Assembly: GCA_010015655.1 (NCBI GenBank)
Contig: ML976691.1
Location: 227,849-291,848, forward strand
Direction of reading: 5' to 3'
Origin: Bimuria novae-zelandiae CBS 107.79
Taxonomy: Eukaryota > Ascomycota > Dothideomycetes > Pleosporales > Didymosphaeriaceae
Length of the DNA: 64,000 nucleotides
Within the stretch, counting starts at the first letter, position 1, and the number at the start of each line of letters is the position of its first letter. Below, one piece after another: positions 22,072-51,224 of the stretch. The notes beneath the pieces are model-generated. The model did not search any database and was not told the DNA's origin. It saw only the letters and a program-made list of their open reading frames with translations. The translations under genes and the position numbers were made by a program.

Positions 22072-22523
22072 ACTTCCATCATCTGCCTGTACAAACATGT
22101 AAATTTTGTAAGACAACCGTGTATTATGGACATAGAGTAGCACGTGCTGGTCGCAACAAAGAAGACAGACCATCGACATACAATCTTCCTTGTCGTCTTT
22201 CTCCTCATTGATTCTTCATCGACTCTTTGTTGATATTCTGAGATCTTGGTTCAGATTTAGCTGTGGAGAGCGTGACGCCGCCTATGTCCTCCCAGTTGCA
22301 AAAGCTGGCCTTCTTTCGTTGTATAAGTTTCGGTGATTGTGCTGTCCACCCTGGTGCCTTCAATAAGAAGTCAGTTGATTCAGCTAGCAATCAGTGCAGT
22401 CCATACCCAAGTTTGCAACACTCTGGTCCCAATTGTATTTGTTCATATTTTATTCCCATCTCAGCCCCTCTCAATCTTTACTACATCCAGCCTGTCTTAC
22501 ATTTTTGGCTGCACTACTACATC
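22072..22523. other. Intergenic / 5' region of the SET gene
   Basis: Contains an in-frame upstream ATG at 22263 that would add 87 codons to the SET protein. That extension is cysteine- and aromatic-rich and unlike the body, so I treat it as leader. Confidence 0.4.
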
Positions 22524-23450
22524 ATGGGAGTCTCAGCCACCACGCACAACAAGCCCGTCAAGCCCACAGGCGTCACCAAGCGTCGCTCTACTCTTCGTCG
22601 CGGCTCCCTCAGGCTCAGACGCACGCGCAGTCAAAACCGACAGTTCCACTACACCACCCCCGACGGCGTTACCCAGGTCGTCAAATCCAACGGCACCGGC
22701 CCCGAACTTCTCAACGACTACACTCTCACCCCCTCCGAGTTCCTCCACGAACCCTACCCATCCACCTTCCCACCCGGCGGCGTCTGGCCCCCCCGCAAAG
22801 CCTCCGACATCCTCTGCGCCCTCGGCACCGACTACATGGACTGCGTAGGCTCCACGTGCTACACCTCGCGCATCTGCACCGACTACGCCTGCACGCACAC
22901 GCTCTCTGCGTGGAAAGCCGCGACGTCGGACTGGGAGCAGCACTTCGAGCTCCGACACACAGGCTCCGACCGGGGCATCGGCGTCTTCACCAAACGCTCC
23001 TTCCGCCGCGGCGACATCCTAGGCTGGTACGCCGGCGAGATCAAACCCCTCGACAGCATAATCGGCACACACGGCGGTTATCTCATGGAGATTGAACTGG
23101 GGGACTTGACACCCCGCGCAGATGCCCCTTCTGTGTACATCGATGCAAAGAAGAAGGGGAATTGGACGCGGTTTATTAATCATAGCTGTGAGGCGGATTG
23201 CGTGTTTCGAATTATGCGGGTCGGCGGGGTGAGGGTTATGGTGGTGGAGGCGGTGAGGGATGTGAGGGGGGGAGAGGAGTTGAGTGTGGATTATGGGAGG
23301 GAGTATTATGGGGTGGAGACGAGGTTGAGGTGTGCGTGTGGGGCGAGGGGGTGTGTGGAGAGAAAGAGGGTGAGGGGAAAAGGAAAGGGGGGAAGTGAGG
23401 TGGTGGGGAGGTGGTGGGGAGGTAAGTGCGCTGTGAATGTTTTTTCATAG
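22524..23450 (+). CDS. SET-domain protein, putative lysine methyltransferase
   Basis: Intronless, 308 residues from the ATG at 22524. A basic N-terminus (TKRRSTLRRGSLRLRRTRS) is followed by a small Cys-rich stretch (CVGSTCYTSRICTDYAC, about residues 111-127). A SET domain then spans about residues 150-265, with the motifs DRGIGVFTKRSFRRGD, GWYAGEI, NWTRFINHSCEADC (the NHxC cofactor pocket) and EELSVDYGREYY. A post-SET-like CACGARGC closes the domain. Target unknown; histone or non-histone are both possible. The gene runs tail-to-tail with the repeat precursor, 328 bp apart. Third-position bias switches from C to G within the gene near 23095 (see findings). The C-terminal 30 residues are Gly/Lys/Arg-rich. 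Confidence 0.82.
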   Translation: MGVSATTHNKPVKPTGVTKRRSTLRRGSLRLRRTRSQNRQFHYTTPDGVTQVVKSNGTGPELLNDYTLTPSEFLHEPYPSTFPPGGVWPPRKASDILCALGTDYMDCVGSTCYTSRICTDYACTHTLSAWKAATSDWEQHFELRHTGSDRGIGVFTKRSFRRGDILGWYAGEIKPLDSIIGTHGGYLMEIELGDLTPRADAPSVYIDAKKKGNWTRFINHSCEADCVFRIMRVGGVRVMVVEAVRDVRGGEELSVDYGREYYGVETRLRCACGARGCVERKRVRGKGKGGSEVVGRWWGGKCAVNVFS

Positions 23451-23778: not shown

Positions 23779-24622
23779 TTACTCCGCAAAGCCGTTCCAT
23801 GCGTCGTCTGCTTCGGCACGCTTCTCTGCGAAACCGTTCCAGGCGTCGTCAGCCTCAGCGCGTTTCTTCTCCGCGAACCCGTTCCAGGCATCATCAGCTT
23901 CGGCAGTGCCACGCTTCTCTGCGAAACCGTTCCAGGCGTCGTCAGCCTCAGCGCGTTTCTTCTCGGCGAAACCGTTCCAGGCGTCGTCAGCCTCAGCGCG
24001 TTTCTTCTCGGCGAAACCGTTCCACGCATCGTCGGCCTCAGCGCGTTTCTTCTCAGCGAAGCCGTTCCAGGCATCGTCAGCCTCAGCGCGTTTCTTCTCG
24101 GCGAAACCGTTCCACGCATCGTCGGCCTCAGCGCGTTTCTTCTCAGCGAAGCCGTTCCAGGCATCATCAGCTTCGGCAGTGCCACGCTTCTCTGCGAAAC
24201 CGTTCCAGGCGTCGTCAGCCTCAGCGCGTTTCTTCTCAGCGAAGCCGTTCCAGGCATCATCAGCTTCGGCAGTGCCACGCTTCTCTGCGAAACCGTTCCA
24301 CGCATCGTCGGCCTCAGCGCGTTTCTTCTCGGCGAAGCCGTTCCACGCATCGTCGGCCTCAGCGCGTTTCTTCTCGGCGAAACCGTTCCACGCATCGTCG
24401 GCCTCAGCGCGTTTCTTCTCGGCGAAACCGTTCCACGCATCATCTACCTCCCCTCTCTTCTTTTCCGCAAACCCGTTCCACGCGGCGTCGACGGCGTTGT
24501 GGGCTTTTGGCGCCGCGTCAGCGCGCTTTTCAGCGAAGCCGTTCCAGGCGTCATCAGCGGCGGGAGAGATGTCGCGCTTCTTCTCGGCGAAGCCGTTCCA
24601 AGCTGCATCGGCCTCTGTGGCT
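23779..24622 (-). repeat. Tandem array of 18 core-peptide repeats (42-69 bp units)
   Basis: Unit lengths in residues, from N to C: 16, 17, 23, 15, 15, 15, 14, 17, 14, 17, 15, 15, 15, 15, 14, 17, 14, 12. All lengths are whole codons. The three N-terminal units have the most diverged flanks; the inner ones are nearly identical. Synonymous sub-types alternate (GGCGTCGTC, CGCATCGTC and GGCATCATC variants, plus strand), suggesting local duplication and gene conversion. Confidence 0.95.
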
Positions 24623-24770
24623 TTGCGGAGCTCGCGGACTGAGGGGTGTATGTTAGGTTGCGATGATGTGCGGGAAGCGGGAGGGGTTACTAACCATTCG
24701 GGGATGTTGGCAACGCTGTGGCGCCGATGGCGAGGAGGGCCATGAGGTAGAGAGTGGTTTTGGAGTACAT
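23779..24770 (-). CDS. Secreted Kex2-processed repeat precursor, candidate dikaritin-type RiPP precursor
   Basis: Two exons, complement(23779..24638, 24695..24770), with a 56 bp intron, give 311 residues. Exon 1 is almost entirely a signal peptide: MYSKTT, a hydrophobic core LYLMALLAIGATA, then LPTSPN. Exon 2 encodes a short leader (VRELRK) and 18 repeats. Each repeat is an acidic/Ala flank (mostly AEADDA or GTAEADDA), the invariant core WNGFAE, and KKR or KR. Only the last copy lacks the dibasic pair, because the stop follows FAE. Dibasic KR is the cut site of the Golgi protease Kex2, so one chain would give up to 18 peptides of about 12 residues after trimming. Repeated cores with KR sites behind a signal peptide define UstA/PhomA-type RiPP precursors and Kex2-processed repeat proteins generally. 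The UstYa-like gene on the other side of the promoter favours the former. The repeated DNA keeps other frames open too; those are shadows. Confidence 0.85.
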
Positions 24771-27068: not shown

Positions 27069-28325
27069 ATGAATCGAGCAGCGTCTCCCTTCATTGAGGA
27101 CCGGAAATCTTACCAACCCTGCCACGACGACGTGGTAGAAGCAGAGATGATTCACAGCAGCGCCAGCTCTGAGACGGCTTCTTTCCTGGAGAAAGCCTCA
27201 TTTCTTCCCTCCAAAACACCAAAGCCGCGGACCAAGTACTACACAGTATTCCTACACGGACTCATATTCGGAGCCAACTTGGTCTTCTTCCTTGCCGTCT
27301 GGCGTTGGAGCACATTTATCAAGTGTCCTTACGGTCCGTACGGACCGGATCTCGTTCACAGTGAGTTCTCTGAGCACACGAACACTTGCACTAGACCCTC
27401 AACTGACAAGTTGGAAATTTCTTAGCTCCAGCAAAAGATGCTATCGCCTACGAATCCCAGCTGTGGGACAAGGTGGCCATCTTCTTCAGGAACGGCACGA
27501 CGAACCCCAACCGGTACCGCAAGCAATTCGGGGTGCCATCGCCAGAGCTAGATGAGGCATGGGAGAAGACCATACAATGCACGTATACCCTTCGAGACGT
27601 CAAAGCGATGCGCTTACATGTAGTCTAGACCAGAATATCCGTCTCTCCAAAGAAGAGATCGGAGAGTGGAAAGACCATCCCGCTCTCGTGAAACTCGCAG
27701 ATGGCTCGGGGTACTACGCTACGCTGTCCGTGTACCACTCTCTGCACTGTAGGTCCCGTGCTCCGATCTCAATCGTTGCAGCGAAGTAGCCAGGCTGATG
27801 CTGGCAGGCGTCAAACGGATCCACCACTACTTATACTTCGACCACTACTATCCCGGCAAAACTGAGCAGGAGCGCATGCTGATTGAACATCACGTCGGTA
27901 AAGTCCACGTTACCCTCAAAATTCATCGCAGACCGCGGCACTAACGTACCCAGAACACTGCCTCAATGTGCTGTTCCAGACGCTGCAATGCAACCCCGAT
28001 CTCACGGTCTTTCCGATGCAATGGGGCGCTACGTAAGTGTTAACCTACGTGGACCATTCCCTAAAGTAGCTCGTGAGACTGATTGTTGGCATGCAGGACC
28101 CGAATCCCAATTGGCCTCGATCAAGGCCATCATCAGTGCATGGACTGGGAGCGCATCGACAACTGGATGAAGACGCGCTCCTTCGATGTGTTTACCCCGG
28201 GACTCATAGTCCACCCTACGCTTGGGGAAGCATATCCAAACGGTAAAGGTGATGATCTTGGGATAGCGCTCGATATGTTGCTGAAGGATAAGTTGGATCC
28301 AGACCATGCGGGAACGAATGTCTGA
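27069..28325 (+). CDS. UstYa-like DUF3328 oxidase (RiPP macrocyclisation type)
   Basis: Six exons, join(27069..27360, 27426..27582, 27624..27748, 27808..27897, 27954..28032, 28097..28325), 323 residues, all phases consistent; introns are 41-65 bp. A cytosolic N-terminus precedes one membrane helix (about residues 58-78, VFLHGLIFGANLVFFLAVW). The lumenal DUF3328 domain follows: VHTPAKDAIAYE, ELDEAW, the NIRLS strand, LADGSGYYATLSVYHSLHC (HxxHC motif 1, His188-Cys192, split by intron 3) and HHVEHCL (HxxHC motif 2, His220-Cys224). The C-terminus ends with MDWERIDNW and a VHPTLG segment. UstYa/UstYb proteins oxidatively cross-link core peptides in ustiloxin, phomopsin and asperipin pathways, probably as metal enzymes through the HxxHC motifs. 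The frame is open upstream of 27069, so a longer start is possible but would push the helix deep into the protein. Confidence 0.9.
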
Positions 28326-29208: not shown

Positions 29209-29268
<60 letters not shown>

Positions 29269-29742: not shown

Positions 29743-31227
29743 TCAAGTCACAATAGCCTCAAACCACGCAGGTACCTCCCGCATCCGTTGTGTTCTCCGC
29801 TCCATACCCGTCGCCCTCCGTCTAAGATCGTACTCCCTCCCACAAATCTCCTTTCTCTTCGCCGCATACCCCGAATAAAGCTCCACCCAGATATCCCTAT
29901 CCGTACAATCCATCTCATTTCCCACCTTATGACACTTCGGCTTCGACTCCTCCCTCCCTTCCTCATCCATCAGCCACGGCTTTCTCACCGGCCAATCACT
30001 GAAATGCACGAACTTCACTTCCTCCAGCACCTTCGTGCCGTTCCACTTCTCTTGCGTGCTGAGGTATGGCTCGTGTTGGTTGGGCTCTTTGCGGAACTCT
30101 GAGGTAAGGAGGTCGTACCGGCGGTGCGGGAGGACGAGCGCCGTATTCTTGTAGAGCGTGTTAAGGATGTCCATGTCGAAGCCGCCTTTGGGATTTGTAG
30201 ACATGTAGTCAGATACGCGCGTCCATTCCGTGGTGGAGGGTTCGATGACGAGGAGCTGGGAGGAGAGGAAAGGCTGGTCGAGCCAGTAGGCGCGAGGCAT
30301 GGCGACAGGCGTGGAGGGAAGAAAGAAGAGCTCGTCCATAGTCTGCGGATGATGTTAGTGGCTGACACACAAGGCTAACTCAAAGCCAGGGGTATAAGGA
30401 GATGAAGCGAGACGTACCTGCCGCACAATGGCGTCCGAATCCAGAGATATGACTCTCTTGTACTGTGTTTGATTGAACGCAAGCAACTTCGTGTAACTAT
30501 CCTTCCACGTAGCGTCTCCTCTATCCTCAAAGGTGACTACCTCTATTGGGACTAGTTCCGCCTTGTAATTGTCTCTCGCTTGTAGCAGAAACCGTGCCTC
30601 TTCTGTGTCCGCCTGACCTTTAGGTATGGACCAGTGCTGTGGGTACATCATGATGCGCTCGGCCTTCGTACCTAAGCGGTGCAGCTCTTCGAGAACCATG
30701 AGGGAATTACATAAGTAATTACTATTGGTTACGTATTGGACATAGGCAAAGGATGACCAGACTACTGCGTCGGGTTTTTGTTGCGGTTGGCCGTTACCGG
30801 TGTCTGGGGGCTGCTTCGTGTGCGGTATTGGCTTTGGCGATTTCCCATGGGGCAGGTCAGATTCATTGCTTGTCTCCTTCGGCTGACCACTGCCGCCATC
30901 TATTTTCTCTATGGGTTTGGGCGGGCTACTTGTAGCGCTTTTGGTTGGGAGTGAAGAAGTAAGCTGTGTCTCCAGTCGATTCGGGTTTGACGGTGGGACA
31001 TTTTCTTTGGAGCTGCCATATAAGTCTTGCGGCGAGAAATGCTGTATACGCGAAGGAGCCTCAGTGAATGAGGATAATGCAATGAGGACTACCGCTATAA
31101 TGACAAGTGAGATCACGGTGCGCATCCGGCGCGAAGACATCCATGTCGCCCGAGCCTGGTGCGAGGATTCCGAATCATGAGACTGGAGAGGAGAGTAGCG
31201 GTGGGAACGGAACCACGCAATTGGCAT
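29743..31227 (-). CDS. GT8-type glycosyltransferase, Gnt1-like
   Basis: Type II Golgi membrane glycosyltransferase. Exons complement(29743..30342, 30418..31227) with a 75 bp intron give 469 residues. A short cytosolic tail, a membrane anchor at about residues 36-54 (TVISLVIIAVVLIALSSF) and a long Pro/Ser/Lys stem are followed by a catalytic domain. Its marks are VVWSSFAYVQYVTNSNYLCNSL, RIMMYPQHW and the metal-binding DxD in VISLDSDAIV (Asp263, Asp265, just before the intron). TMDELFFLP, MPRAYW, SSQLLVIEPS, GFDMDILN and VHFSDWPVRKPW follow. This pattern fits the GT8 / glucose N-acetyltransferase 1 (Gnt1) group. The donor sugar cannot be told from sequence. Confidence 0.82.
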
Positions 31228-32378
31228 GCTGAAATTTGGAAAACTAAAAGAGTAATTGGAGGAAAGGAAAGAAGCATGAAAAGAGGACCAGTGGAGGATG
31301 ACAGATTGAAGACAAAGGCTTCGGAGCGAGGTGAGTTGAGCTCACAGGACTGACAAAGACACGAGTCGTTAAAGAATCCATGTATGCGGCAGCGCGGGGG
31401 CGCAAGCGGCGAACCCGGTCAGTGGAGGCGTCGTTCTCACACCACCCTGGGTAGGCACAAGGCTAGGTATCTATCAGCAGCTAGGTTTGCATGGAGGCTT
31501 CACAGGTCTGTATCACTAGCAACAGTCGTGGCTGGCGTCATCTAACAGTCGACATCGAACAATCCGACTTTGACCTTTCTTCAAAGAACGGCTGTTGAAC
31601 AACACTGAAGTAACCAGACAAAGAAGGAGTATTGGAAGTGAAAATTGGATGCCAGGATTGATGCATCTCGTATCTGCGCGCGCGGCCATCGCGAGCTACG
31701 AACGTGCTATTTGTGTTTAAGCGGTCCAGGGTAAACAGGGTCATAGGCGCCACGAACCAGGTTCGGATGCGAGGTGACGAATAAGAGTGAGCGCGGTATC
31801 TTACGCAAACTTGGGATCTTATGGTGCCGACTAAAACTGTGACGGTTTAATGGCTCTTACTCGATGAGATGGTTACTCCTACCCTTGCTTAGTTGCCACT
31901 CACCTTTCTGAGAGGGCTACACCTATCTGGGACTAGCGATGTTTACGCTCGTACACATACATACTCGGTAGCTTCTAGATAGTACACCCTCCAGCAGAAG
32001 AATTCCACAATCTTTTCTACTGCGCACCAGCCGTTCGGCCCACCGCGACAAAAACCCTTCATCTGTTCTCCCTGCCTCATTGCAAAAGCACCGAAGTAGG
32101 GGGTAGGTTTCCAGCACAATGAGCGATGCGCACCCGCAATGCCAAAACGAGACTTCCGTCGCTCAACACACCTCTGGCGAATAATCAGACGAGTGAGACA
32201 ATGTTCGTATTCGGTCAAGGCGCGCTGGCGCGCTGGAGTCTTGTCGTAAGATGCTGAACGCACATGTACGGCGAAGCATTTTGGCGCCACACTAACAGCG
32301 GGGCCGTTTTCTTGGCTGCGCCTTCCTCCCGCCTTACATGCTAAGAATGGATGACAATTTTTGAAACAACAACCGATA
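31228..32378. other. Intergenic flank of the transposon island
   Basis: 1.15 kb upstream of the glycosyltransferase gene. Base composition is near that of the genes until about 32340. No convincing coding frame or RNA gene. Confidence 0.5.
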
Positions 32379-32444
32379 CTCGGCCCCTAGCGGCTGCTGC
32401 GCAGTTTCTCTCCGAGAAAGGCCGCGCTTTGCACGGCCCTACTA
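32379..32444 (+). repeat. Left inverted terminal repeat of the DIRS-like element, outer 66 bp
   Basis: Starts CTCGGCCCCTAGCGGC. It matches the reverse complement of 52431-52496 with five mismatches. The repeat resumes at 34581-34604 after the pogo-like insertion, giving 90 bp in all. Confidence 0.9.
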
Positions 32445-34578
32445 GTGTTTCGCACCACCCAATGCACGCTACGGGCCAATGCACGCGCTAGTACTTTACC
32501 CCTCAATCAACACCATATTTTCGCTGCCTTATAACTCAACCGATATGGATCCGATTAACGAAGTAATTAAAGAAATTAAATCCCTAGAGTCATGCGAAAC
32601 TTTCTCTTACGCGATAATTACGAAAAAGTATAGTGTTATTTGTACAACGCTGATGCGCCGGCACAAAGGGATTACAGCCTCAAGAACAACACGTATCTCT
32701 AACACCTAAAAGCTTAACCCACAACAAGAGGCAGAGCTTGTAAAGTACATAGAAGGCCTTACAGCTCGTCGGCTATAACCTATAAGGGAGATGGTACGAA
32801 ATTTCGCCTCTGCGATAGTAAAACAAGACGTAGGCTAGAACTAGGTTACCCGATTTATCGCCCGGTATAAGAACAATATTAAATCACACTGGACTGCTAG
32901 AATGGACCGTGACTGACACAGAGCTAATTTAGGGGATAAATATTAGTAATTCTTTTAACTTCTGCATAACAAGATAGAGGAATACAAGATACAGCCTTAG
33001 CACTCGTACAATATAGATAAGAAAGGCTTCCTTACTGGGATCATTAGAAGAAGCAAAAGGATCTTTAGTAAAGTAATATAGGATAGAAAGGAAGTAAGAG
33101 AAGCTCTTTAAGATAGGAATTAAAAGTGGATAACCTTATTAGCATGTATATGTGGTGATAGATCCTCTCTCCCGCCCGGGCTTCTTTTTGCCTCAGCCAA
33201 CTTATCTATCCAATCCTCTTGGGTAGAAGGCGTACGAGCAGGAAAACATGAGGCCTTTATTAGCTTATCTCTAAATAGATAGAGTAACAATGATATAGGC
33301 CTTGCATGGCTAGAACAGGTGTTTGATTAATACACTAAAGAGAAGGCTCAAAAGGATAGACGCGCATAGAGGTTACTTATCTTAGATAGCTATAGATCTC
33401 ACATTATAATAGATTTTATTAACTACTGCAACTAGAATCGAATTCTGCTTATAGTATTTCCTCCTTATTTAACTTATAGGCTTTAACTACTAGATGTAGT
33501 AATATTTAAGCCTCTTTTAACAGACTACTCTAACGCGCTTATAAAACACCTCTATAACGCCTAAGGACTAGTCCTAATAGTTAAAGGAGACTTTTTTTCT
33601 CTATTCTGGCAGGCCTGGACCTCTTCCTTTAGAGAAGAGCTTATTCTTAAAGCTTTTAAGGCCACTAATATATAGCTAACTAACGGAGAGGTTATCCTTA
33701 AGAAATTCATTAAATTAACTCTAGAACCTTAAGATTTACGAGAGAGCTCTACCTTAGTACTTAGTAAAAAGGACTAGTATAAAATCGAAACTATCGTACG
33801 GTCTTAAGTTAAAGATTAGAGTAGTAAAGACGTTTAGAAGCTTTAACGTTTACTCTACTATATCACAGTTTAAAATAACCTCTTTTACACTAAAGTAGAA
33901 GGCCTGCGGCAGGCTGTTTTATTAATAAGGAAATACAAGAAGAAGAGCAAGACTCTTAACCTTTAATAGAGAAAGGAATACTATAGTAGTGCAGTGTTCT
34001 AGTCACCTTTAAAGATAAGGGAGGCCCGGTTTCGTAAGAGGATTAAGAAACAAGAAGAAAAAGAGTAATAATTTAAGAGAGCTCGTATAAAGGCAGAGAA
34101 GGCCTAATAGAAGGTCCTTAAGCTTTAAGAGAAAGAAGAAAGAGAAAGGTTAAAAGTTAAGAAAAAAGAGGAGAGGGAGAGGATTAAGGCTAAGAAATAG
34201 GCTACCTAGGAACGTTAAAGAATTAAGAAAGATAACTCTAAAAAGGCTATATAACCTTCCTAAAAGGGAAAGAGGAAGGCCCTAAAGCCTCTCTTAAAAT
34301 AATAAAAGAAAAAGGCCTAGGTTTAGGTTATTGCAGAGGTTAAGGATGCGGAGACCTAGAATCCTTTACACGTAATCATGACCTGGGGTGGCCGCAATAT
34401 TAAGCTTCCGTTAAAATTTAAATAGTATATCTTTTTCGCAGCAGTTTGTTTAGTTATATAATAAATTATTAGAACAATTCAGCTATCGTGCATGGTTCAG
34501 AAACTCATTGTTGTTGTGAGAGTGATTTGGTGTTCCGCGTGCATTGGCCCGTAGCGTGCATTGGGTGGTGCGAAACAC
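32445..34578 (+). mobile_element. pogo/Fot1-type Tc1-mariner DNA transposon, RIP-degraded
   Basis: 2134 bp element with perfect 43 bp terminal inverted repeats (32445-32487 and 34536-34578, outer end GTGTTTCGCACCACCC), flanked by TA on both sides (32443-32444, 34579-34580), the target duplication of Tc1/mariner elements. It contains a broken transposase. It lies inside the left terminal repeat of the DIRS-like element: removing it plus one TA restores the match to the right repeat. Confidence 0.92.
32545..34385 (+). pseudogene. pogo/Fot1-type transposase, broken
   Basis: An N-terminal psq/CENP-B type helix-turn-helix is readable at 32545-32705 (FSYAIITKKYSVICTTLMRR). Pieces of the DDE_1 domain follow (GIGLAWLEQ-like and LLILDSYRSH near 33285-33415, FPPY near 33465, then the FWQAWTSSFREE helix near 33605). 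A Lys/Glu-rich tail runs to about 34330. There are many in-frame TAG/TAA codons, mostly where CAG/CAA/TGG is expected: RIP damage. Confidence 0.85.
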
Positions 34579-34580
34579 TA

Positions 34581-34604
34581 GCTCAATGAACAAACAGGTT
34601 CAAT
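34581..34604 (+). repeat. Left inverted terminal repeat of the DIRS-like element, inner 24 bp
   Basis: GCTCAATGAACAAACAGG and the following TTCAAT match 52407-52430 in reverse complement exactly. Confidence 0.9.
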
Positions 34605-34989
34605 GAACACGACAACCACCTTTCTGCCCAGCGCCATCGAAACACGCCCTTTTTACATTGAAAAAATTGCCAAAAGTTGAGAAGGAGGTCTCCTAGTACA
34701 CGCGCGAGTGCCGGATTATCGAAAAGGCGGTGGTGGAGTTACCCCAATTAGCAGCGTTAATTATTTTAAAAAATCTATTATTAGCCTACAAAAACCTAGA
34801 CGCAATTACTTAGTAACTAAATATAAACTTATAGCTAAAAAAGATTTTTTAGTATAATAAAGACTTCCTATTTTATAACTTCCTACTTAGTCTAGGACCC
34901 AAAGTAGATAATAGATAAAGATAAATATATTATCTCTCTTATTTTATAGGTAACTTAGTTAATAACTAAATATATCTTAACGAGACTAT

Positions 34990-35310
34990 ACTATACTATA
35001 CTATAGTAAAAGATATTTTTAAGCTAGTATGCCACGCAGGTAAAAGAGCCTCCTTATTAAAAAAAAAGACTTTAAAGACGCCTTTAAAATAATACTAGTA
35101 GTAAGACTAGTTTTACTATAAGAACTACCTCTCCTTTAGCCTACGTATAGCACTCTTTCTATTTAACTTATTTATAAAAGGCTTCTATTAGGTGCTCTAG
35201 TTATACCTTAAACAGAAATATATTATATACTATTTAGATGACTTTATATACATCTTTAAGTCTTTAGCAATACTAGTAAAGGAAATACTTTAATTAATTA
35301 ATTAATTAAT
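34990..35310 (+). pseudogene. Reverse transcriptase fragment of the DIRS-like element
   Basis: Readable segments include LIKKKDFKDAFK (palm strand with the first Asp, near 35060), LFLFNLFIKGF (near 35155) and the catalytic YYLDDF box at about 35236-35253. The LFNLFxKG...YLDDF spacing is that of YR-retrotransposon (DIRS/Ngaro) reverse transcriptases and differs from the gypsy form seen elsewhere here. Several TAG/TAA codons interrupt it. Confidence 0.7.
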
Positions 35311-35334
35311 AAAAATTATAATATTGTTGAATGG

Positions 35335-35579
35335 GCTATACTAAGCCAAGCATATCGCGATATGATAGGGCTAGATAGTTGTACGATGGTACGGGTGAGA
35401 AAAGGGTCTGGTATTCAAGTCTTGTCTGTCTATTCTACGTACGGAGGAAAGGGGATTATAAGGATTGATGCTCGCGCACGGTGACTATGGTTTGTGCCTT
35501 TGCCTGTGCGGTATTACATAACCATTGTCACCTGTCTTAAGACATCGCATTAGGTAGCTGCCCGTACTGCGTACGGACA
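35335..35579. mobile_element. Solo LTR 1
   Basis: 245 bp beginning TGTTGAATGG and ending GTACGGACA, flanked by a perfect 5 bp duplication AATAT (35330-35334 and 35580-35584). It is noticeably more GC-rich than its surroundings and shows little RIP. No internal retrotransposon sequence remains. Confidence 0.85.
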
Positions 35580-35644
35580 AATATAATTATAAACGTACTA
35601 GGCTTATGCTATAATAGTACTAAAGATATAATAGGCACTACTAT

Positions 35645-36121
35645 TGTTACGAGCTCAGGAAACCCGGATAGTGGCACAACCACAGACGAGGATGAATGGG
35701 GGGAGGCAGATAAGGTTGTACTATAGCTAGCCCGTGAGGACTCGCGGGGTCGCTTATGTTAGCCAGGGTCACGTGACTCTGATCCGACAGTAGCTCTGGA
35801 TTAAGGTGATCCGCCAAGAGCTTCGAACTACGGTGATCCGCTAAGGGGGCCAGATCACCTAGAGATAGAGGAAGAAATAGACTAGTATATAGTGTAGTAG
35901 ATTCTCCTATGTTATTTCCTTTTTTATAGTTAACTTACATATCTTCTATGCGAGTACGTTCTCCTATATAGACTAATAGTTATCTTACTTTATTATAAAA
36001 TTAAATTATCTAGCCTCGCGCTAAGTGTCGCATTAATTTATACTACTAAATAATTTATAAAGTACTATAATACTTTATTACTTTAATTTAAATTAGAATA
36101 AAGTGTAAGCGCTTTATAACA
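35645..36121 (+). repeat. 5' LTR of gypsy copy A
   Basis: 477 bp, aligned by eye along its whole length with 42533-42999. The differences are mostly transitions, as expected from RIP. Confidence 0.9.
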
Positions 36122-36207
36122 CTTTAACTACCTTATAGTATAATAGTAAGACCTAGTTTGAGCACCGTAGTCTTAGCACCTAAGGAAAAGACCCTAAAAA
36201 AGATAAT

Positions 36208-36430
36208 TGTAATGAGGTAAGCGCCCCGCTTACTAAGCCAATACTATGTGACTTCCTCACTTGCACCAAAAGGTACGCACGAGTATACTTAAGCCAAGTA
36301 TTACTCGTATAGTATAATATATATAGGATATGCTAGGGTCAGCCACTAGCGCTAGTGTTTGATCCTAGCCTAGCCGGAACCTCTATAAGCGAGAGAAGGC
36401 CACGTGTTCGACCGTGCCTACCTCGTTACA
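36208..36430. mobile_element. Solo LTR 2, inserted in gypsy copy A
   Basis: 223 bp starting TGTAATGAGGTA and ending TACCTCGTTACA (long inverted ends), flanked by a perfect 5 bp duplication ATAAT (36203-36207, 36431-36435). It lies 86 bp downstream of the 5' LTR of copy A, so it inserted after copy A. Confidence 0.85.
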
Positions 36431-36439
36431 ATAATTATT

Positions 36440-39400
36440 AAATAAGTAGCTTAAATAGCTTAGCTATAAGAAATTATTAACTAAATAAGTAAGAAGATAA
36501 GTAAATAGGAAAATATAAAATATTAATTAAAGGTCTTAAAGCCTAAACCCTACTCTAGAAAGGGCTACCGAGGAACGTTCTTAATCTAAATAAAACTATT
36601 TATCTACTATAACTTAGGAAAGTTTAACACGGAATAAGACAAGATCCTAGTTACCTATATAAATATATAGGATAAAGTAGCTATATAAGCTAGGCTAATA
36701 ATTAATAACTTCCTTAAGTATAGTAAACTAAAAGATTATAATTTAAACGCTACTAAAAACACCTTTAAAGACTAAGAATCCTTTTATAAGGCTATAAAAG
36801 GAATATTTAGCATAATTAATAAAAAATATTAGGCTAAAATGCGCTTTTAATGTCTACGCTAAAAGAAATTAGTAGTACTCTATACTTTAAAATTTAAATA
36901 GATAGTAGCGGAACTTAATAGATAGAGGGAAGCCCTACTTATAATTACCTACTATAATAGGCTAAAGGAGTTAGTTAAAAATAAATTAGTCTACTAAGGA
37001 AAAGTAGATAACTTAGAAGAACTTATTAATAATGCTATTAAAATAGATAATTGCTTATACGAGCGAAAGCTAGAGAAGCAGCATAGTACCTAACTACTTT
37101 CTAGGAAGGAAAACAGCACCAGGCCTACAGGAAAGGACTAAGACGGAGACGTTATTATAACTAATAAAGCCCGATGGTACAGAAAAAAGAACGGCAAGGG
37201 GAAACAGCCGTATAAGTTAAAGAAGGCTTACTAAGGCAGAAGTGGCATCTCGCAAGAAAAGCGAGAACGGAGGTTTAAGGACAAAGCCTGCCTCTAATGT
37301 GGCAAGCAAGGCCACTTCGCCAAAGACTACAAAGGTTAGGAGACTAAGGTTAATACGACTAACCTCCTACAAGTAGCTATGGCCACTCTCACACTGGCAA
37401 AAGCCGACGAAGTGGATCTCACGCAGGAGATCCCGGAACTAATAAAGGAAGAGGAGGAACGGAAAACCCTCCCTGAATATTAGATCTTCCAGCAATTAGC
37501 AGACGATACCTGCTAGATGTGCAGCAGTACGCTACACTAGTCGTCCCAGTGTGAGGCAAAGGTAATCGTCCAAGGAGCACACGCATGGGACGCCTATTGG
37601 CTAGCGGAGAAGCTACAAGGGCGCCCGAAGCAGTACCCACGCCAGGTCACGATACAAGAACGACACGAGTATGCCAAGTGGTGGCAATGCACACGTAAAG
37701 GATGCCAATAGCACTCTAAGGCTAGGCTTAGGGCCTCCTATTTTCTAGGAGGTTTAGAATACTATAAGCTAAAAAAGAGCTAGTGCAGCGTACCTAATAA
37801 CTACTATAAGTACTTTTTAGCCTATTAAACTAAGTACTATAAATAGAATAGCTAGCACTAATATTTTAATATTACCTATAAGCTATATAGATAATAGAAG
37901 TTTAAGACAGGCTAGTTCTTTTAAGGTTTAGACCCCTAGGACACTAGCATAATAATAGGAAGCACGCAGCTAGGAAAAGACGTAGACTACTTAATAATTA
38001 AATAAAATTAATATAACTTATAGTGCTTTATATACTTAAGTCTATAAAAGGAGGTAGCTTCCTTTAATAGTTACTTAGGACATAGTATATTAGCCTAGAA
38101 TAAATGCCTTACTCTAAATTGCCCGCAACATAGGAATTAGGGAGTATATAAGCTTAATAGGATTAAAAAGACTTACGCCCTATATTAATAGCGATATAAG
38201 TAGTATAGAATTAAGAAAGTTTTAAAGCTAGCCTAACTTAAGGGTTAGATTTAGGAGGTAGAAGCCTTATAAGGGGTCTAAAACAAGTTAGAAGACTTAA
38301 AAAACTAGATTATTACTAAGTAATAAGCCACACTAGTAATAGTGCAATTATTATAGCTTATTAAGTAGATACTTACTAAGTTAAGAAACGCTTAATTAAG
38401 AATATTATAGTGCACGGGTATTATATTATAGTACTTATTAACTTAAGAGTAGACGCGTGTCTAATTACCCTATAAGTAGTTAAAAAATATAATATACTAT
38501 ATTATAATAAGAGGACACCGCTATAGATAGGACTTATAGACAGGATCTAGTTATAAGGATATAGTAATAGTTGGCTATAGCTCGAGACAGCGCTAGTACA
38601 AGTTAATATAAAAGGCCTAAAGAGCTAACATATTTTTACTATTATATAGATAGGAGATATTAAAGCTATCGTAAGATATAAATAGCTAAAATAATATAAT
38701 TGATAAATAGACTAGATTAAACGAACGATCCTTCCCTAAAATCTACTAGTAATAGCTTAGGCGAGCCCTAGCGGAAGGGAAACTCTCTAGAAACCTTAGG
38801 CAAGAAAGGGGAACTAACTATCTAAAATATAAGAAATATTAGTATATAAGATAGACAGGATTTTATAGTAACACCTAGGACAGGTGCACTATATATAGGT
38901 CTAGGAGGCTAAAATAGTCCCTAACGACCTAGGTCTGCTAGAAAAATATAAGGAATTTATAGACCTATTTAAGGAGCACAACAAGGCTATCCTGCCTAAA
39001 TATAAGGAGTAGGATTATAAGATACTACTAGTAGAAAAAGCTAAGCTATAGCTAGAGCGCCTAAGGCCCCTTATTTATAAATAAGAAAAAGAGTTAAAAG
39101 AGCTAATATAGAAGAATCTACGCTCTAAGAAGTAGAGACCTAGTTAAAGTCCTATAGCCTTTTCTATACTCTTTATTCGCAAAAAGGATAGCAGGCTATA
39201 ACTCTATATAAATTATAGATAACTAAATCCCGTTATAATTAAAAATCGCTACCTATTACCCCTAATAATAGAGCTTATAGATCGACTCCAAGGAGCTAAG
39301 TAGTTTATAAAATTTAACGTCTAAAATAGATTCTATAAGATTTAAATTATAAAAGGCTATAAATTGAAAATAGCTTTCCGCACGCGATATAGGCTTTTTA

Positions 39401-41880
39401 AATATATAATTATACTAATAGGGCTAACTAACGCACTAGTAACCTTCTAGGAACTTATAAATTAAGTATTATATAAATACTTAGACGTATTTTGCACGGC
39501 ATACCCTAATAACTTATTAATATACTTAAGTAGAATACTAGAAGAACATAAGAAACATATTTATAAAGTATTATAAAAGTTATAAGAATATAGATTACTC
39601 CTACACCTTAAGAAATATAAATTCTACGTTACGGAAATAGAATATCTAGGATTTGTAATATCTTAGGAAGGTGTTAAAATAGACCCGAAGAAGATTATAA
39701 TAATAGAAAAATAGCTACTACTAGAATTAGTAAAAGATATTTAATTTTTTTTAGGCTTTACTAACTTCTATTATAAATTTAATAGGAACTATTCTAAGGT
39801 TACCGCTTTACTAATAGAACTTACGAAGTTAGGAAAATAGCGACCTCTATAGGAGGTAAAGAAAAAAGCCTTTAAATAGCTAAAGCGCCTATTCTTAACG
39901 GCACCCCTACTATAAATATACGACCTAGAACGATAACATTACATCTACATAGACGCATCAGATTATACGCTAGGGGCCGTACTACTATAAAAATATAATA
40001 ATAAGAAGTAGAAACCAGTCTTTTATTACGCAAGAAAGCTTTTAGGAGTAAAGCTTAACTATAGGATCTATAATAAAAAACTACTAGTAATTATTAACTA
40101 TTTTAAGTAATAGAAAGTATAACTAAAAGGAGCTAAATACTAAATAAAGGCGTTTTTTAATTATTTTAAGCTTACGCGCTTTATAACGACTAAAAAGCTT
40201 AATTAATAATAGGCTAGATAGTTAGAATAAATAGTAGAATTTAACTTTTATATTACGTATCTACTAAGAAACGTAAACGCTATAGCAAACATATTTAGTA
40301 AATAATTAAATCTTGTAGAAGAGGATAATAGTAGTAACTATATCGCAATCTTAACCTACGCGAAGGACGGAACCCTTCGCTATAATAAGATATAGCTTAC
40401 GCCAGCACTAGAGGTGCGACGCGCAGACTTTACCTATTACAGGCTAGCTATAGATAGGATATAGGACTATAATAGGCTTATAAATAAGGACTACTAAGCG
40501 TACGACCTTTACTAAACCACAAGATTAATAGCACGAGACTATTAAAACTATATCTAAATTAGTAAGTAAATAGCTCTGTTGCTAATTAAGAAGCTACACG
40601 AAGATAAGGACTAAGAATACCTAAAAATTACTAAAATAACGCGTTAAATCGCGAATAAATATACTATCTTTAGGCTACGCTGGGCGGTATAAAAGGTTTT
40701 AGGCAACTATTTAGCCTGTTATAAAAATAAGCCTAAGAGATATAAGCCTTATAGCCTCTTATAGTTACTATAGCCACCCCTAAGACTATAGTCTAGTGTA
40801 ACTATAGACTTTATCGTAAAGCTACTAGCATTACTAACACTAAAAAATAAGGACCCCTATAACTTAATCTTAGTTATAATCTATTAACTTACTAAAGAGT
40901 TAAGGTTTATGCTAATTAGGGAAGCTATATTAGCAAAGGAATTAGTTTATATAGTAGAATAAGAACTAATATTATAGGTTAGATAACTAGATAAGTTTAT
41001 TACAAATAGGGCTAGAATATTTACATTATTATATTAGACTACGTTTATAGCTAAATTAGGAATTAAGCATAAGCTTATAACGAGCTTCTATCTTAAAATA
41101 GATAGCTAAATAGAGCAAACAAACTAGATATTAGAATAATACCTCTAGATATATATAAATAAGCTTTAAAATAATTAGGTAGAGCTATTACTAATAGCTT
41201 AACTAGCATACAATAGCGCAAGATTAGTAACTATAGGGTACTTACTATACTATACTAACTACAGGTGTGAGCCCACGACTTACTAGGACCTATTAAATAT
41301 CTAAAGCGTTATAAAGAACGTAGCTAATAAAGCCAAATTTATGTAGGATTTACATAAGACACTACGCTAGAATATTATATAACGTAATAAGTAAATAGTA
41401 AAATAAGTAAATAAAAAAGGATTAAGAGACTAACTTTTAAAAAGGGGGATAAAGTCCTCCTCTTGTAAAATTTTTTTAAGATAATAAGCCTAAGTAAAAA
41501 ACTAGATAACCTTTATAAAGGACTATTTAAGGTCTAAAAGGTTAGAGGTCTAGTAAATTTTAAACTATAGTTACTTATAGACACACGTATACACCTAGTT
41601 TTCTATAAATTCTTATTAGAACTAGCACTACTAGACGCCGAACTAAAATATAACTTAAACTTAAGGATAAGGAATATAAGGTTAAAGTAATTAGAGGCCT
41701 ATAAAAGATTAGACGTTAGTATAAATACCTGGTAAAGTGGGAAGGATAGCTAAAGAACCATAACACGTAGGAACTAATGCAGAACCTCACGAACTACAAG
41801 ATAGCGCTAGAAAAGTTCCACGCGGAGCATCCAAGAGTCCCGCGACTAGATTAGCTAAGAACTTAGAAAAGTCAAAAGAC
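36440..41880 (+). pseudogene. gag-pol of gypsy copy A, broken
   Basis: Gag with a CCHC zinc knuckle at 37286-37330 (the last Cys is now Tyr and one internal codon is TAA). RT/RNase H lie around 39290-40110: the metal-binding box reads YPNN in place of the usual YxDD, and the RNase H start has DASD near 39955. Integrase remnants run from about 40600 to 41350. A chromodomain-like segment (YLVKWEG) lies near 41730-41830. Dozens of stops, nearly all RIP-type. A patch at 37380-37700 is much less mutated than the rest. Confidence 0.85.
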
Positions 41881-41918
41881 GCAGAAGGGTTAAAAGGAGT
41901 AAATAAGTTAGCCTATAA

Positions 41919-42383
41919 CTAGCCTAAGTTAGATATAGGTAGTAATAGTAAAGATAGAATAAGAGCGCCAGCGTCTATACTTTTAAAAGAAAAAAGCTCT
42001 AGGATCCTAGCTTTACGCTCTAAACGCTTTAACTTTTTTATTAACGTAATTTCTTCTAGCTTATAATAACGTTCCTTTTTTTAAATATTAAATAACTTTT
42101 ATTCTCTTTAAGCTAGTTCCTCCTTTAAGCAAAAAATATTACCTTAAAAATAGTATTATTTTACCTTTATCTTTTAACGCTTAGTCTGCGTTAGAACTAA
42201 GCTATACTAAACTTTCGCCTAAATATAGTAAGCGTAAAAGCTAGTAAATAACTTTATTACGCACTTTAGCCCCTTCTCTTTATAACGCCTATATAAAGTT
42301 AGTATCTTAACGTTTACGTCTAGAATAGCCTTTATCTAGTCCTAGCGGCGTTAGTTAAAAGACGTTATTAGGACTTTAGGCAT
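41919..42383 (-). pseudogene. Antisense frame of gypsy copy A with Zn2Cys6-like spacing
   Basis: 155-codon frame on the minus strand between the chromodomain and the 3' LTR. It starts at ATG 42383 and ends at a TAG at 41919, interrupted only by RIP-type TAG/TAA. Between 42293 and 42204, one TGC and five TAY codons fall exactly at the spacing C-x2-C-x6-C-x8-C-x2-C-x6-C. TGY to TAY is the RIP change on this strand. It is homologous to 50086-50535 in copy B (same position, start context and last codons). Confidence 0.6.
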
Positions 42384-42532
42384 AGTTAGGCAGGCAATAA
42401 AAAGGACATAAGGCAGACTTATAATAGGGGCCTTAATTGCTACTTATACGCGCGCACGCTAGCGCCGCTATATAATTATAAAATAATAAGTATTAAGATA
42501 ATTACCTTAAGAGGGAGGATAATGTTATAAGC

Positions 42533-42999
42533 TTAGGAAACCTAAATAGTAGCATAACTATAGATAAGGATAAATAGGAGGAGGCAGATAAGGTTATACT
42601 ATAGCTAGCCCGTAAGGACTTATAGGGTTGCTTATATTAGCTAAAATTACATAACTCTAATCTAATAGTAGCTCTAGATTAAGATAATCCGCCAAGAGCT
42701 TTAAACCACGGTAATCCGCCAAGAGGGCTAGATTACCCAGAGACAGAGGAAGAAATAGACTAGTATATAGTATAGTAAATTCTCCTATGTTATTTCCTTC
42801 CTTATAGTTAACTTATATATCTTCTGTGCGAGTACGTTCTCCTATATAAACTAATAGTTATCTTACTTTATTATAAAATTAAATTATCTAGCCTCGAGCT
42901 AAGTGTCGTATTAACTTATACTACTAAATAATTTATAAAGCACTATAATACCTTACCGCCCTAACCTAGATCGGAACAAGGTGTGAGCGCCTCATAACA
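42533..42999 (+). repeat. 3' LTR of gypsy copy A
   Basis: 467 bp partner of the 5' LTR, preceded by the polypurine tract. Confidence 0.9.
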
Positions 43000-43004
43000 A
43001 CTAT

Positions 43005-43990
43005 AAAGGGCTTAAAAGTTAAAATTAATATAATTTCTATAATAGCTTACCTTTCTAAAAGATAACTTAATAAGGTAATTTAGCTAGTCTTAATAGCACT
43101 TAGTAATAGCAGATTTATATTACTATAAGCCTATAAGATAGCTAAATTCCTTAGCTTTTATAGCTAGGTTATTACGCTAAGGCGTACGTTTTTAAAATAA
43201 TTATAAGATTATATAGTTATATTCGCGAAGGTTAGAAGCTTCCGCCTACTTACTAAAGGTATAACTAAAGATTTAACTTAGCAGAGAGACCTGCTACTAT
43301 AGTTTAATAAAATATAATTATTTAATAACGCTAGCTATCTTGTCTATTATCTTTTTACTAACGTATTAAATAAAGCAATAGGCGCCTTTTAGTATATAAG
43401 TAATCCTATATAAGGGGACTAGTAGGTTTTATTTAAAAAATGTACTATAATAGCACGCCTTTTTATATAAACGTAAGTAAGATAAACAAAGTCTTTAAAT
43501 AAACGTACTAAAGTTTCGCGTAATTAAGCTAGCCTTTAAGCTTTAGGGCGTAAACTAGGCACATAGCACGGTAATTATCTATATAGATAACACAACGGCA
43601 GAGGCCAGCCTAAAGGATGGAACCACCTAAAGACAGGCCTCTATAAACTACCTCCGCGAAATCCTTATACAGGCTACAGCAATAGACGTTACCCTATACT
43701 TACGATAAATTATAACGAGGGATAATACTTTTGCTAATACTTTATGATAATTTCACTAGCCTCTTATAGCTAATATTACTAAAAACTAGTAGATACCCTT
43801 CTTATTAAACTACTTTTAAAGTTTATTAAGTTTATATAACTAATAACTAAGTTGTACTTGTACGCTAAGCTACTATAGGCAGGCCTTAAGCTTGATATAA
43901 AATAAAACTATAACTTAGTAATTAAGTCTTATAAGTAGTTCTACGCGCTATATAATTTTTTAAAATAGCTAATAACGCGCACTAGCCTTA
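43005..43990 (+). pseudogene. RNase H and recombinase N-terminus of the DIRS-like element
   Basis: Resumes the outer element after copy A. An RNase H-like stretch with an Asp-containing strand (DNTTAEA, or its RIP form, near 43590-43610) is followed by LRxITTRDNTFADTL near 43705-43745, the usual C-terminal Asp helix of YR-element RNase H. Then come the first helices of a SAM-like core-binding domain (KSYKQFYALYNF near 43925-43960) of a tyrosine recombinase, cut at 43990 by copy B. Confidence 0.65.
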
Positions 43991-44488
43991 TGTTACGATT
44001 ACAAACCATATAGGAATAAGAAGACTAGATAATTACGCTAAAGAAGTAATTATTAGTAAAATAACTAGGTTACGGAAATACACGAAGACGCGGGGTAGCT
44101 TAGGTTAGTAGTCACGTAATGTAGTCCCGCCTAAGCGAGAAGTCCAAGGGACTACGAAAGTCTAAGAGACTACAAAGGCTTAGTAGGACTATAATAGTAA
44201 TTTAGAGAATAGTAAGGACTATAATAGATAGTATATAGTCTAATAATTTCTCTATACTTCTCCTACTCCTAGTAGTTAACTTAATGTACTATAAGTATAT
44301 CTTTTGTAACAAGATTAGTAAATCTCCTAGTTAGTTATTTTATAGTTTATTATAAAATTAGATTATTTTTAAAACCTACCTTATAATTATTTTTAGCTTT
44401 TAATTACTAAATATCTGTAAGACACTTCTCCCTTGGCCTATTCTCTCTTAACCTAGACTAGGCTTAGGTACGTAGAATCCTTATAACA
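43991..44488 (+). repeat. 5' LTR of gypsy copy B
   Basis: 498 bp, starts TGTTACGATTAC, ends TATAACA. It contains two copies of an 18 bp unit (around AAGTCCAAGGGACTAC) at 44139-44174. Confidence 0.9.
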
Positions 44489-44489
44489 C

Positions 44490-47400
44490 TTTAACTACCT
44501 AAAGGTTTAAAATAACAAAAATAGTTATAATAGCTACTATAGTAAGGATCCTGATAGAAAGCGTGGCTTCTAGACTAACTATAAATACTATAATAGTATT
44601 AACTAATTAAGCTAATAAAATATAGTAGCTTAAGGAGTAGCTAGCTAAACTAACAACTTATATTCTAACTATTATAACTACGAGAAGGATATCCTTTAAG
44701 ATTCTTAAAATTTATAAAGGTAAAAGAGAAGGACTTAAGACTTTTCTTATAAATATAGAATTATACTACTAATATAACAAGGATATCTTTAGAACTAAGT
44801 AGGCTAAAATCCTAGCAGTAGGTATACATATAAAGGGCAAGGCAGCTAAATAGCTATAACCCCTTATAAAGAATTACCTAGAGAATAAAGATAACATCTT
44901 AGAATATAGTAATAAAACTAAGAAGGTGTTTAAGGACTAGGTATCTTTTAAGGAATAAATCTAGATTATATTTAGAGAAGTTAACGAGGAATAATAAGCT
45001 AAACGTAAAATATAAAGGCTTAAATAAATAAAATTAGCTAGTATATATATAGCTAAGTTCAGATGCCTCTAAGCTAAGATTAATTAAGATAACGTCCCAC
45101 TTTAGGTAGCCTACTATAATAGACTAAAGGAAAGCGTTAAAGATAAGCTTACCTACTATAATAAGATAAATAACCTAGAGGAACTCGTAAAACTAGCTAT
45201 ATAGATTAATAACTAACTATATAAATAATAATTAGAAAAACAAGAAGGTAATTATATATAACCTAATATTAAGAAGAGCTAGAAACTACAAAAGGACCTT
45301 AATAAAGATATTATAATAGGTAATAAAGCTTAAGAATAAAAACTAAAAAGGTAGTAAAAGAATCGCAAGAATAGACTATTCAACTAAAAGTAAAAATAAC
45401 GCTTTAAGGAAAAAGCATTCTTAAAATATAAAGAATAAAGTTACTTTTAAAAGAATTGCCTAAAGAATAATAATAGATAAAGTAAGAAAGTGCAAATTAT
45501 CTAAGTAATAATAGCTATACTATAGGCACTAATACCTATGCTACTAAAGATAAGTAAAGATAACGTCTCTAATATAGAACTTAAAGTTCTAGAGACACTA
45601 GAAGAAACAGAATAGAGAATAGTATAAAAGTATAAGATCTTTCTCTAAATAGTAGAAGAAAACTACTAGGTGTGTAATAGTTAGATGCATATACCTAAGG
45701 ACTATACGCAAAAAATTATGCTTAAGGGGCTAAGGACTACCTTAACCTATAAAATTATTACTAAATACTAAGAAAATATACTAATACTAGAAAAGTAGAT
45801 TAGAATTTAGAAATAATATAAGCAGGTAGCCTAGTTCCTATATAATAAAGAGGACTGTCGACTACATAAGATAAAAAGGGAACTAATAGTAATATTACGA
45901 AGAAACCCTAATTATAAGTTTATTAATAATTATAAACTAATAATAACTTACTATAAATATTTTCCTAATAAATAGTTACGATACTATAAAGAATTAAGAT
46001 AGTAAAAGTACTTTAATAATAAGTGCCAAATGCACAAAGCATACAAAAAAGCTATAGGCTAGTACCTTAAAGGCATAAACGCAGGATTAGTAATAATTAT
46101 AAAGAACTAATAGATAAAGGACACAAGCCCTAAGCACTTATAATAGATTAGATAGCTAGACTATAATAGGGATTACCTAGCACACCTATATTAAAAAAAA
46201 TAAATAGCAGTATTAGAAACAACACTATTACACAGAGATCTAAAATCTTAAGAATGTCTAGTTACGAGATACAAAAGACACGGAGAATCCTAAAAGGATA
46301 AGATCTAGCAAATTAAGAATACTAAGAGCACCTATAAATTACTTTACTAAAAGTAATAAAAGAAGACTAAAACTAACCTAGAAATAGAAGAAGCTACACG
46401 AACCTAAGTTAAAAAGGTAAAAGCTTCTTAGGACGTTACTAAGTAAGCTAATAATAAGTTAAAAAACTAGGGCGCCACTAGGTAAAAGACCTTACTAGTA
46501 AAGACGCAACTATAAAGGCAAAAAGGGCAAAAATAGGTATAAGTAAGCTATAACTAACTAAGAAAGTTATAATTAGTGGTTACTAAGTAATAGCGCTAAT
46601 AGACCTTAGAGTGACCGGATGTCTAATTTCCCAAAAAAAATAATAAAGAAATACAACCTGCCATATTAGAATAAGGAAACACTAGTATAAGTAGAAATAG
46701 TAAATAGGACAATATTCCAAGGATATAGCAAAGGCTAGTTACGCCTTAAAATAACGCTATTACTTATTAGCCTAAATAAATTTAGAGCTAATATAGCTTT
46801 ACCATAATAAATCTTAGAAGTATAAAAGTAATTATTAGTTATAATTAGCTTCTAAAGCATAACCTTATTATTAACTAGTAAAAGAAGACGTCACTTAGCT
46901 AATGACTTATACTAAAGGTTACTAAAGTACATAAATTATAAAAAATATAACTATTAACCCTAGATGCCCGAGTAAGGCGGGTTAAAGGATAAGCTATATA
47001 ACTTGTAGCTACTAAAATTATAAAAGTTATAGAAAAAAAATCTAGGCTAAGTAAGGCTAATATAGGTATAATACTTAGGCCTAAGAGAAGAGGTAAAAGC
47101 CACTAAAATTCTACTAGAATATTAAGAATATATAGAACTTTTTAAAGACATTAAAGGAGAAGAACTACTAGAACACTAGAAATAAGATTATAAAATATCC
47201 TTAGTAGTAGGCATAAAGCTATGCCTAGAATAACTATAACTAATATTTATAAACTAAAAAAAGGAAGTATAGGATTACTTAAGAAAGAACTTAGCAAAAT
47301 AGTATATTTAAGAAACTTAAAGCCTAGTAGCTTTTCCTATACTTTAGGTACCTAAGAAGAATAGTAAGCTGCAACTCTATGTAGATTATAGATAGCTAAA

Positions 47401-50085: not shown

Positions 50086-50535
50086 CTAGCTTAAGTTAGT
50101 TTTTAAAAGTGCAAGTCGCGATAGATCGCGATTATTAATAGTAGCTATACCCTTTAGATCCTCTTTCTACTTCTCTAAAGCTTCTATTATATTAGTAATA
50201 CGTAAATTATAATAAGCATAATCATGCTCCTTCTCCTCCACTTTAGCTAGCTCACGCTTGAGGCGAGCAGCTAACTCTTTCGCGCGAAGAAGCTCCAGAC
50301 ACTTCTTACGCTTCTCCCTCTAAACACGCTCCTAGTCTTTCTCAGGAACCCACAGGCTACACGGAGTATAAATAGAAATACAACCAGGACACTCCCTAGA
50401 AGTAGCGTCTATAAAGTAGCGTAACTTTATTTTCTAGCAGCGCTTATAACTAGATATTATTTTTAGACTTTAAGATCCTACCTTCTCCGCGCGGGCACGA
50501 CGAGTAGTAATAGATAAATAAGGAGTTTTTAGCAT
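50086..50535 (-). pseudogene. Antisense frame of gypsy copy B: Zn2Cys6-like cluster plus coiled coil
   Basis: 150-codon frame on the minus strand between pol and the 3' LTR, ATG at 50535, TAG at 50086, with five internal RIP-type stops. Codons at 50446-50448, 50437-50439, 50416-50418, 50389-50391, 50380-50382 and 50359-50361 encode Tyr, Cys, Tyr, Cys, Cys, Cys in C-x2-C-x6-C-x8-C-x2-C-x6-C spacing. A Lys/Glu/Leu-rich coiled-coil segment follows (LLRAKELAARLKRELAKVEE). A fungal zinc-cluster regulator-like gene carried by the element is the simplest reading. Confidence 0.65.
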
Positions 50536-50695
50536 AGTTAGTAAGGCAAGGAAAATTAAGAGGAGGCTATAATCTACCTTAAGACGCAGGAACACGCACT
50601 TTTATATAAATTAATAATTACGCGCTAATAATATAGTAAAGTAAAAAAGTAAAGTATTAAGATAATAACTTTAAGAGGGGGGTAGTATTATAATT

Positions 50696-51219: not shown

Positions 51220-51224
51220 CCTTA

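Follow-up and report, generated by a model that had tools for sequence, protein, structure and literature searches.

A divergent gene pair encoding an 18-repeat peptide precursor and a UstYa-family protein in Bimuria novae-zelandiae: a candidate dikaritin-like RiPP locus with a tyrosine-free core

A gene in Bimuria novae-zelandiae CBS 107.79 encodes 18 copies of one short peptide, AWNGFAE, which raises the question of what, if anything, the fungus makes from them. The stretch analysed here, referred to as the window, comprises 64,000 nucleotides of contig ML976691.1, and its features are collected in Table 1. Our best reading is that the locus is a dikaritin-like RiPP pathway, the core of which contains Trp and Phe and lacks Tyr.

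Table 1. Positions of the predicted features discussed in the text, numbered from the first nucleotide of the window.
Feature	Position	Strand	Remarks
SET-domain frame (protein methyltransferase type)	22242..23450	plus	PF00856, E 1.1e-17; direct neighbour on the other side of the precursor
Precursor exon 2	23779..24638	minus	array of 18 AWNGFAE cores at about 24603-23782; stop codon 23781-23779
Precursor intron, predicted	24639..24694	minus	56 bases, GT-AG
Precursor exon 1	24695..24770	minus	start codon 24770-24768; hydrophobic N-terminus, possible signal peptide at about residues 1-19
Intergenic region between divergent start codons	24771..27068		2,298 bases; holds no wholly internal stop-to-stop frame of at least 150 aa
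UstYa-family gene (DUF3328, PF11807), predicted	27069..28325	plus	323 aa, six exons; E 4.7e-45, 154.6 bits (cut-off 25)
UstYa gene exons	27069-27360, 27426-27582, 27624-27748, 27808-27897, 27954-28032, 28097-28325	plus	
Glycosyltransferase family 8-like predicted protein, weak	29743..31341	minus	PF01501, 23.8 bits, just under the cut-off of 24.3

The precursor gene occupies 23779-24770 of the minus strand and encodes 311 residues in a two-exon model that rests on a predicted intron. The first-pass annotation had given exactly these limits, from the ATG at 24770 to the stop codon ending at 23779. The N-terminus of the protein is hydrophobic, with a 12-residue hydropathy maximum of 2.31 at LMALLAIGATAL, and is followed by a short leader; a possible signal-peptide cut between ATA and L was picked by eye and hydropathy only. 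The precursor also matches the Pfam families LPD18 and Sdh5, these are likely artefacts of repeat composition and no stretch passes alone.

The same annotation had described 18 invariant AWNGFAE cores, each preceded by a variable flank and all except the last followed by a basic site. All 18 cores are exact, a repeat-by-repeat reading bears out the variable flanks, and basic sites follow 17 of the 18 cores (12 KKR, 5 KR), the last core being followed by the stop codon. The constant part had been drawn too short, however. Asp is found three residues before Trp in every unit and the next residue is Asp in 16 units and Ala in two, giving a longer constant block, D-[D/A]-AWNGFAE, in 18/18. The flank is AEADDA or GTAEADDA in units 5 to 18, and the first four units carry the same core behind other flanks.

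Tandem arrays grow by slippage and units 5 to 18 are near copies of each other, as might be expected of a decaying or non-coding tandem repeat from which no product is made. Nor did protein searches find a homologue of the precursor: none of the 7992 top word-sharing candidates scored with the 311-residue query reached E <= 10, and a 144-residue shortened query gave none among 332 candidates. These searches covered predicted proteins of a limited length range, and are no proof of absence in nature. Against decay, the frame is open across all 18 units and the first four, in spite of their differing flanks, still keep D-[D/A]-AWNGFAE. The 18 cores are encoded by 11 distinct DNA sequences, which vary at the third positions of five codons; at least 10 base changes among them cause no amino-acid change, whereas just 19% of random single changes in AWNGFAE core DNA would be silent. 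Our own rough probability of such silent-only variation is 6e-8, a figure that ignores homogenisation between repeats; because homogenisation makes the core changes non-independent, no formal probability is offered beyond it. We therefore consider a decaying array very improbable. A DNA pattern for AWNGFA matches the 77.4-Mb genome 19 times, at the 18 cores and at one isolated site on contig C23 that lacks repeats.

Kex2-processed repeat proteins have been surveyed across fungi in PMC7329392, a paper represented here, wherever it is cited, by part of its text. The criterion given there is at least three tandem repeats, with at least 8 residues between KR, KK, RK or RR sites and no stretch of more than 100. 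The precursor, with its 17 KR/KKR sites and stretches of 12 to 20 residues between them, has the repeat layout of a Kex2-processed repeat protein by this measure. The definition also asks for a signal peptide, for which the hydrophobic N-terminus with its possible ATA/L cut is a candidate. The genome contains a single P-domain (Kex2-type) gene (PF01483, E 1e-27).

A secreted-type repeat precursor with KR sites is also the layout of ascomycete alpha-pheromone precursors, and the cores could be released as unmodified linear, pheromone-like signalling peptides. In keeping with this, no convincing alpha-pheromone gene was identified elsewhere in the genome: a search with the MF_alpha profile gave no match, and WC..GQ.CW matched once, in a frame of 16 residues that lacks KR repeats; a control with the pattern reversed matched once as well. 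The core motif of alpha-pheromones is WC..G..C, with Cys. The AWNGFAE core contains neither Cys nor this pattern, and MF_alpha is not among the Pfam families that the precursor matches at E up to 1.

On this pheromone-like reading the gene on the other side of the intergenic region would be a chance neighbour. That gene, which was absent from the first-pass annotation, encodes a UstYa-family protein and is divergent from the precursor gene, the start codons being 2,299 bases (about 2.3 kb) apart. The protein matches PF11807 over profile positions 2-219 of 220, and contains both HxxHC motifs (HSLHC and HVEHC, each interrupted by a predicted intron) and a hydrophobic segment near its N-terminus, as judged by hydropathy. 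Across the genome PF11807 gives 58 exon-level matches, which we grouped into about 39 places including the window, two of them resting on matches under the cut-off. A point picked at random in the genome has a probability of 0.0023 of falling no more than 2.3 kb from such a place. In PMC7329392, DUF3328 neighbours accompany 22% of the 7878 repeat precursors, with counts peaking at the position adjoining the precursor, whereas pheromone-type precursors almost never have such a neighbour: it is lacking for 98.6% of the 216 of pheromone type and for 100% of the 227 of alpha-factor type. Taken with the composition of the core, this makes unmodified pheromone-like peptides unlikely. The earlier proposal of a fungal RiPP precursor cut by Kex2 is strengthened by the UstYa/DUF3328 gene 2.3 kb away and by the P-domain gene, and as a whole is partly supported.

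A search of public proteins with the UstYa protein identified 11 relatives, five of which are named: two proteins of Letharia columbiana and one each of Icmadophila ericetorum, Xylographa trunciseda and Usnea florida. A taxonomy look-up places the Letharia, Icmadophila and Xylographa species in the Lecanoromycetes. Usnea also belongs to this class, and all four genera are lichen-forming. Judged by these relatives, the window would probably be placed in a lichen-forming fungus, and infected tissue would then be an unlikely place to look for the product, although the kinship of one enzyme is weak evidence for a species. The UstYa protein is 60% identical to a Letharia protein in alignment, which retains HSLHC and has HGQHC as its second motif. 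Two further relatives (P0004 and P0005) are 68% and 67% identical over about half of the query, and are closer than the Letharia protein over the first exons. The best-scoring other UstYa protein of the same genome, on contig C1, is just 34% identical. An AlphaFold model of the Letharia relative (P0001) has a mean pLDDT of 47.1, too poor for a copper-site test or a fold search, and no solved structure matches the PF11807 family profile at E <= 0.01.

The DUF3328 family includes CctR, a copper-dependent enzyme with two coppers per monomer that forms a dimer and uses dioxygen, and for which an organelle lumen has been proposed as the site of action; mutation of its HxxHC motifs abolishes activity (PMC12435403). 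The window protein shares with CctR and other DUF3328 copper enzymes the HxxHC(x)nHxxHC motif and the hydrophobic segment near the N-terminus. The substrate of CctR is a non-ribosomal cyclic peptide, whereas the window enzyme would work on a repeat core of ribosomal origin. CctR itself hydroxylates, and halogenation, oxidation and isomerisation are known from other members (PMC12435403). With a family that performs several reactions and a core that lacks Tyr, the same gene pair and the same cutting could yield a modified linear peptide, the UstYa protein hydroxylating, halogenating or dehydrogenating the core without closing a ring. Such a reaction, hydroxylation or some other oxidation, is the chief competitor of a ring centred on Trp. 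Against it, DUF3328 proteins are indispensable for cyclisation in the ustiloxins, asperipin-2a and the phomopsins (PMC7329392), and we regard a linear product as somewhat unlikely.

The explanation that we prefer, with about even confidence, is that the divergent pair consists of a precursor gene, the product of which Kex2 would cut at KR/KKR, and a UstYa gene, the product of which would oxidise the cores; the most probable outcome is a macrocycle centred on Trp. Without Tyr in the core, there can be no Tyr-ether ring like that of the characterised dikaritins. A ring at Trp is favoured because UstYa enzymes of known repeat-precursor pathways close rings, and because copper-containing BURP cyclases can use the Trp indole nitrogen. 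Lyciumin-type BURP enzymes join this nitrogen to carbon, according to the excerpted text of PMC12186524, and the plant BURP cyclases have a plane of four histidines similar to that of the DUF3328 enzymes (PMC12435403). By analogy, copper-dependent Trp chemistry thus has a precedent in plants. The presence of Trp is itself no sign of UstYa action, since Trp is not enriched in DUF3328-linked precursors: in PMC7329392 it is found in 20.5% of them, against 24.5% of precursors without such a neighbour. Tyr is found in 65.6% of DUF3328-linked precursors in the same survey. A precursor of this kind that contains Trp and lacks Tyr is a minority case and not a new class.

In the pathway that we envisage, the precursor would enter the secretory pathway and Kex2 would cut after KR. 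A Kex1-type carboxypeptidase would then strip the basic residues to leave ...FAE, which is exactly where the last repeat ends before the stop codon. By comparison with CctR (PMC12435403), a dimeric two-copper UstYa enzyme would oxidise the core in an organelle lumen, and the acidic flank would be trimmed. The most likely alternative to the Tyr-ether ring would be a link between the indole of Trp and one of the residues near it (N, F, A or E). Calculated [M+H]+ values are 723.3097 for WNGFAE, 794.3468 for AWNGFAE, 1024.4006 for DDAWNGFAE and 1295.5174 for AEADDAWNGFAE; a shift of minus 2.0157 would correspond to a ring or double bond and one of plus 15.9949 to a hydroxyl.

The locus resembles those of the ustiloxin, asperipin-2a and phomopsin dikaritins in the apparently secreted-type N-terminus of the precursor and in its tandem cores with basic Kex2 sites. 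It also has the adjoining UstYa/DUF3328 gene with two HxxHC motifs found in dikaritin pathways. It differs from them in its 18 identical cores and in lacking Tyr, the feature through which the dikaritin ring closes, and hence a Tyr-ether ring. We call the locus dikaritin-like, and not a dikaritin, because its core lacks Tyr, a residue that is usual rather than universal. A further difference is that the window holds only one UstYa gene, although asperipin-2a likewise has one DUF3328 gene (PMC7329392). The 20 window entries scanned against Pfam (8 + 2 + 10, some overlapping; the window list has 52 frames) included no tyrosinase, no O-methyltransferase and no GNAT acetyltransferase. The sole methyltransferase-type match among these entries is the SET domain, and this frame probably lies outside the cluster. 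The glycosyltransferase-like gene adjoining the UstYa gene may or may not be a member.

Between the UstYa and glycosyltransferase-like genes, at 29211-29264, is a (GA)n microsatellite about 54 bases long. From 33000 to 52000 the window is AT-rich (25-43% GC per kb) for about 19 kb, beginning about 5 kb from the UstYa gene. The 4-kb bins that span 32001 to 52000 show a strong RIP signature, with TA/AT of 1.5-1.9 and a substrate index of 0.28-0.75; elsewhere in the window these are 0.66-0.85 and 1.07-1.21, except in a mixed bin at 52001.

The same layout occurs elsewhere in the genome. We examined 27 of the 38 other UstYa places, reading about 4.5 kb to either side of 20 of them and about 1.5 kb to either side of seven, and counted as a repeat precursor any frame in which three or more fragments between basic sites have a 5-mer in common. 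We fixed this criterion with the results of looser scans already in view; those scans had also picked up chance frames, at the other UstYa loci as well as in the window, which served as control. Six of the 27 places have a repeat precursor within about 4.5 kb of the UstYa genes (contigs C42, C13, C6, C51, C10 and C11; loci L009/L027, L011, L016, L046, L057 and L052, respectively). The 5-mer scan of the window found nothing beyond the precursor gene and frames overlapping it. The repeat contains Tyr in five of the six other precursors, the exception being that on C11, which has an HH motif and is rich in Gly and Lys. The AWNGFAE core, with Trp and Phe and no Tyr, is therefore unusual among the repeat precursors seen in its own genome.

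Two further observations on UstYa places deserve mention. Near a UstYa gene on contig C148 (L071) is a secreted-type protein with two KR-preceded WFC...GYGYGCNAK units of two Cys each, below the three-repeat criterion. The UstYa matches on contigs C184 and C149 form mirror images of each other, with scores that are the same or almost so, and may reflect a duplicated region or assembly haplotypes.

A literature search for the core found no real use of WNGFAE, its one textual match being inside a bacterial name. The precursor and core appear to be new, and the kind of system known. A 2025 survey of lichens (PMC12048977, excerpted text) counts 987 RiPP clusters over 111 genomes; for two Parmeliaceae clans, R1 and R2, it describes no repeated region that is conserved. 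These clans resemble our locus in having a UstYa-family signature gene, and Parmeliaceae is the family of Letharia, the source of the best named relative. They differ from it in that the window has a repeat precursor directly beside the UstYa gene, and in that the tyrosinase and O-methyltransferase genes of R1 and the GNAT genes of R2 have no counterpart among the 20 window entries scanned (PMC12048977, same excerpt). A later survey (PMC12711211) counts RiPP clusters and does not contain the words DUF3328, UstY or core peptide; the excerpted text names no precursor.

Besides the clear pair in the window, the genome holds at least six more pairs of a repeat precursor and a UstYa gene. A simple search of the translated DNA is thus enough to bring some precursors to light. 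We put forward, more tentatively than the preferred explanation itself, that a two-copper UstYa-type enzyme may use the Trp indole of a Tyr-free core to close a ring, as a fungal counterpart of the plant burpitide Trp cross-link, and that lichen fungi may hold a whole set of such repeat-encoded peptides missed by cluster-finding software. The Tyr-free core poses a clean and testable question, namely how a UstYa protein acts when it has no phenol to use.
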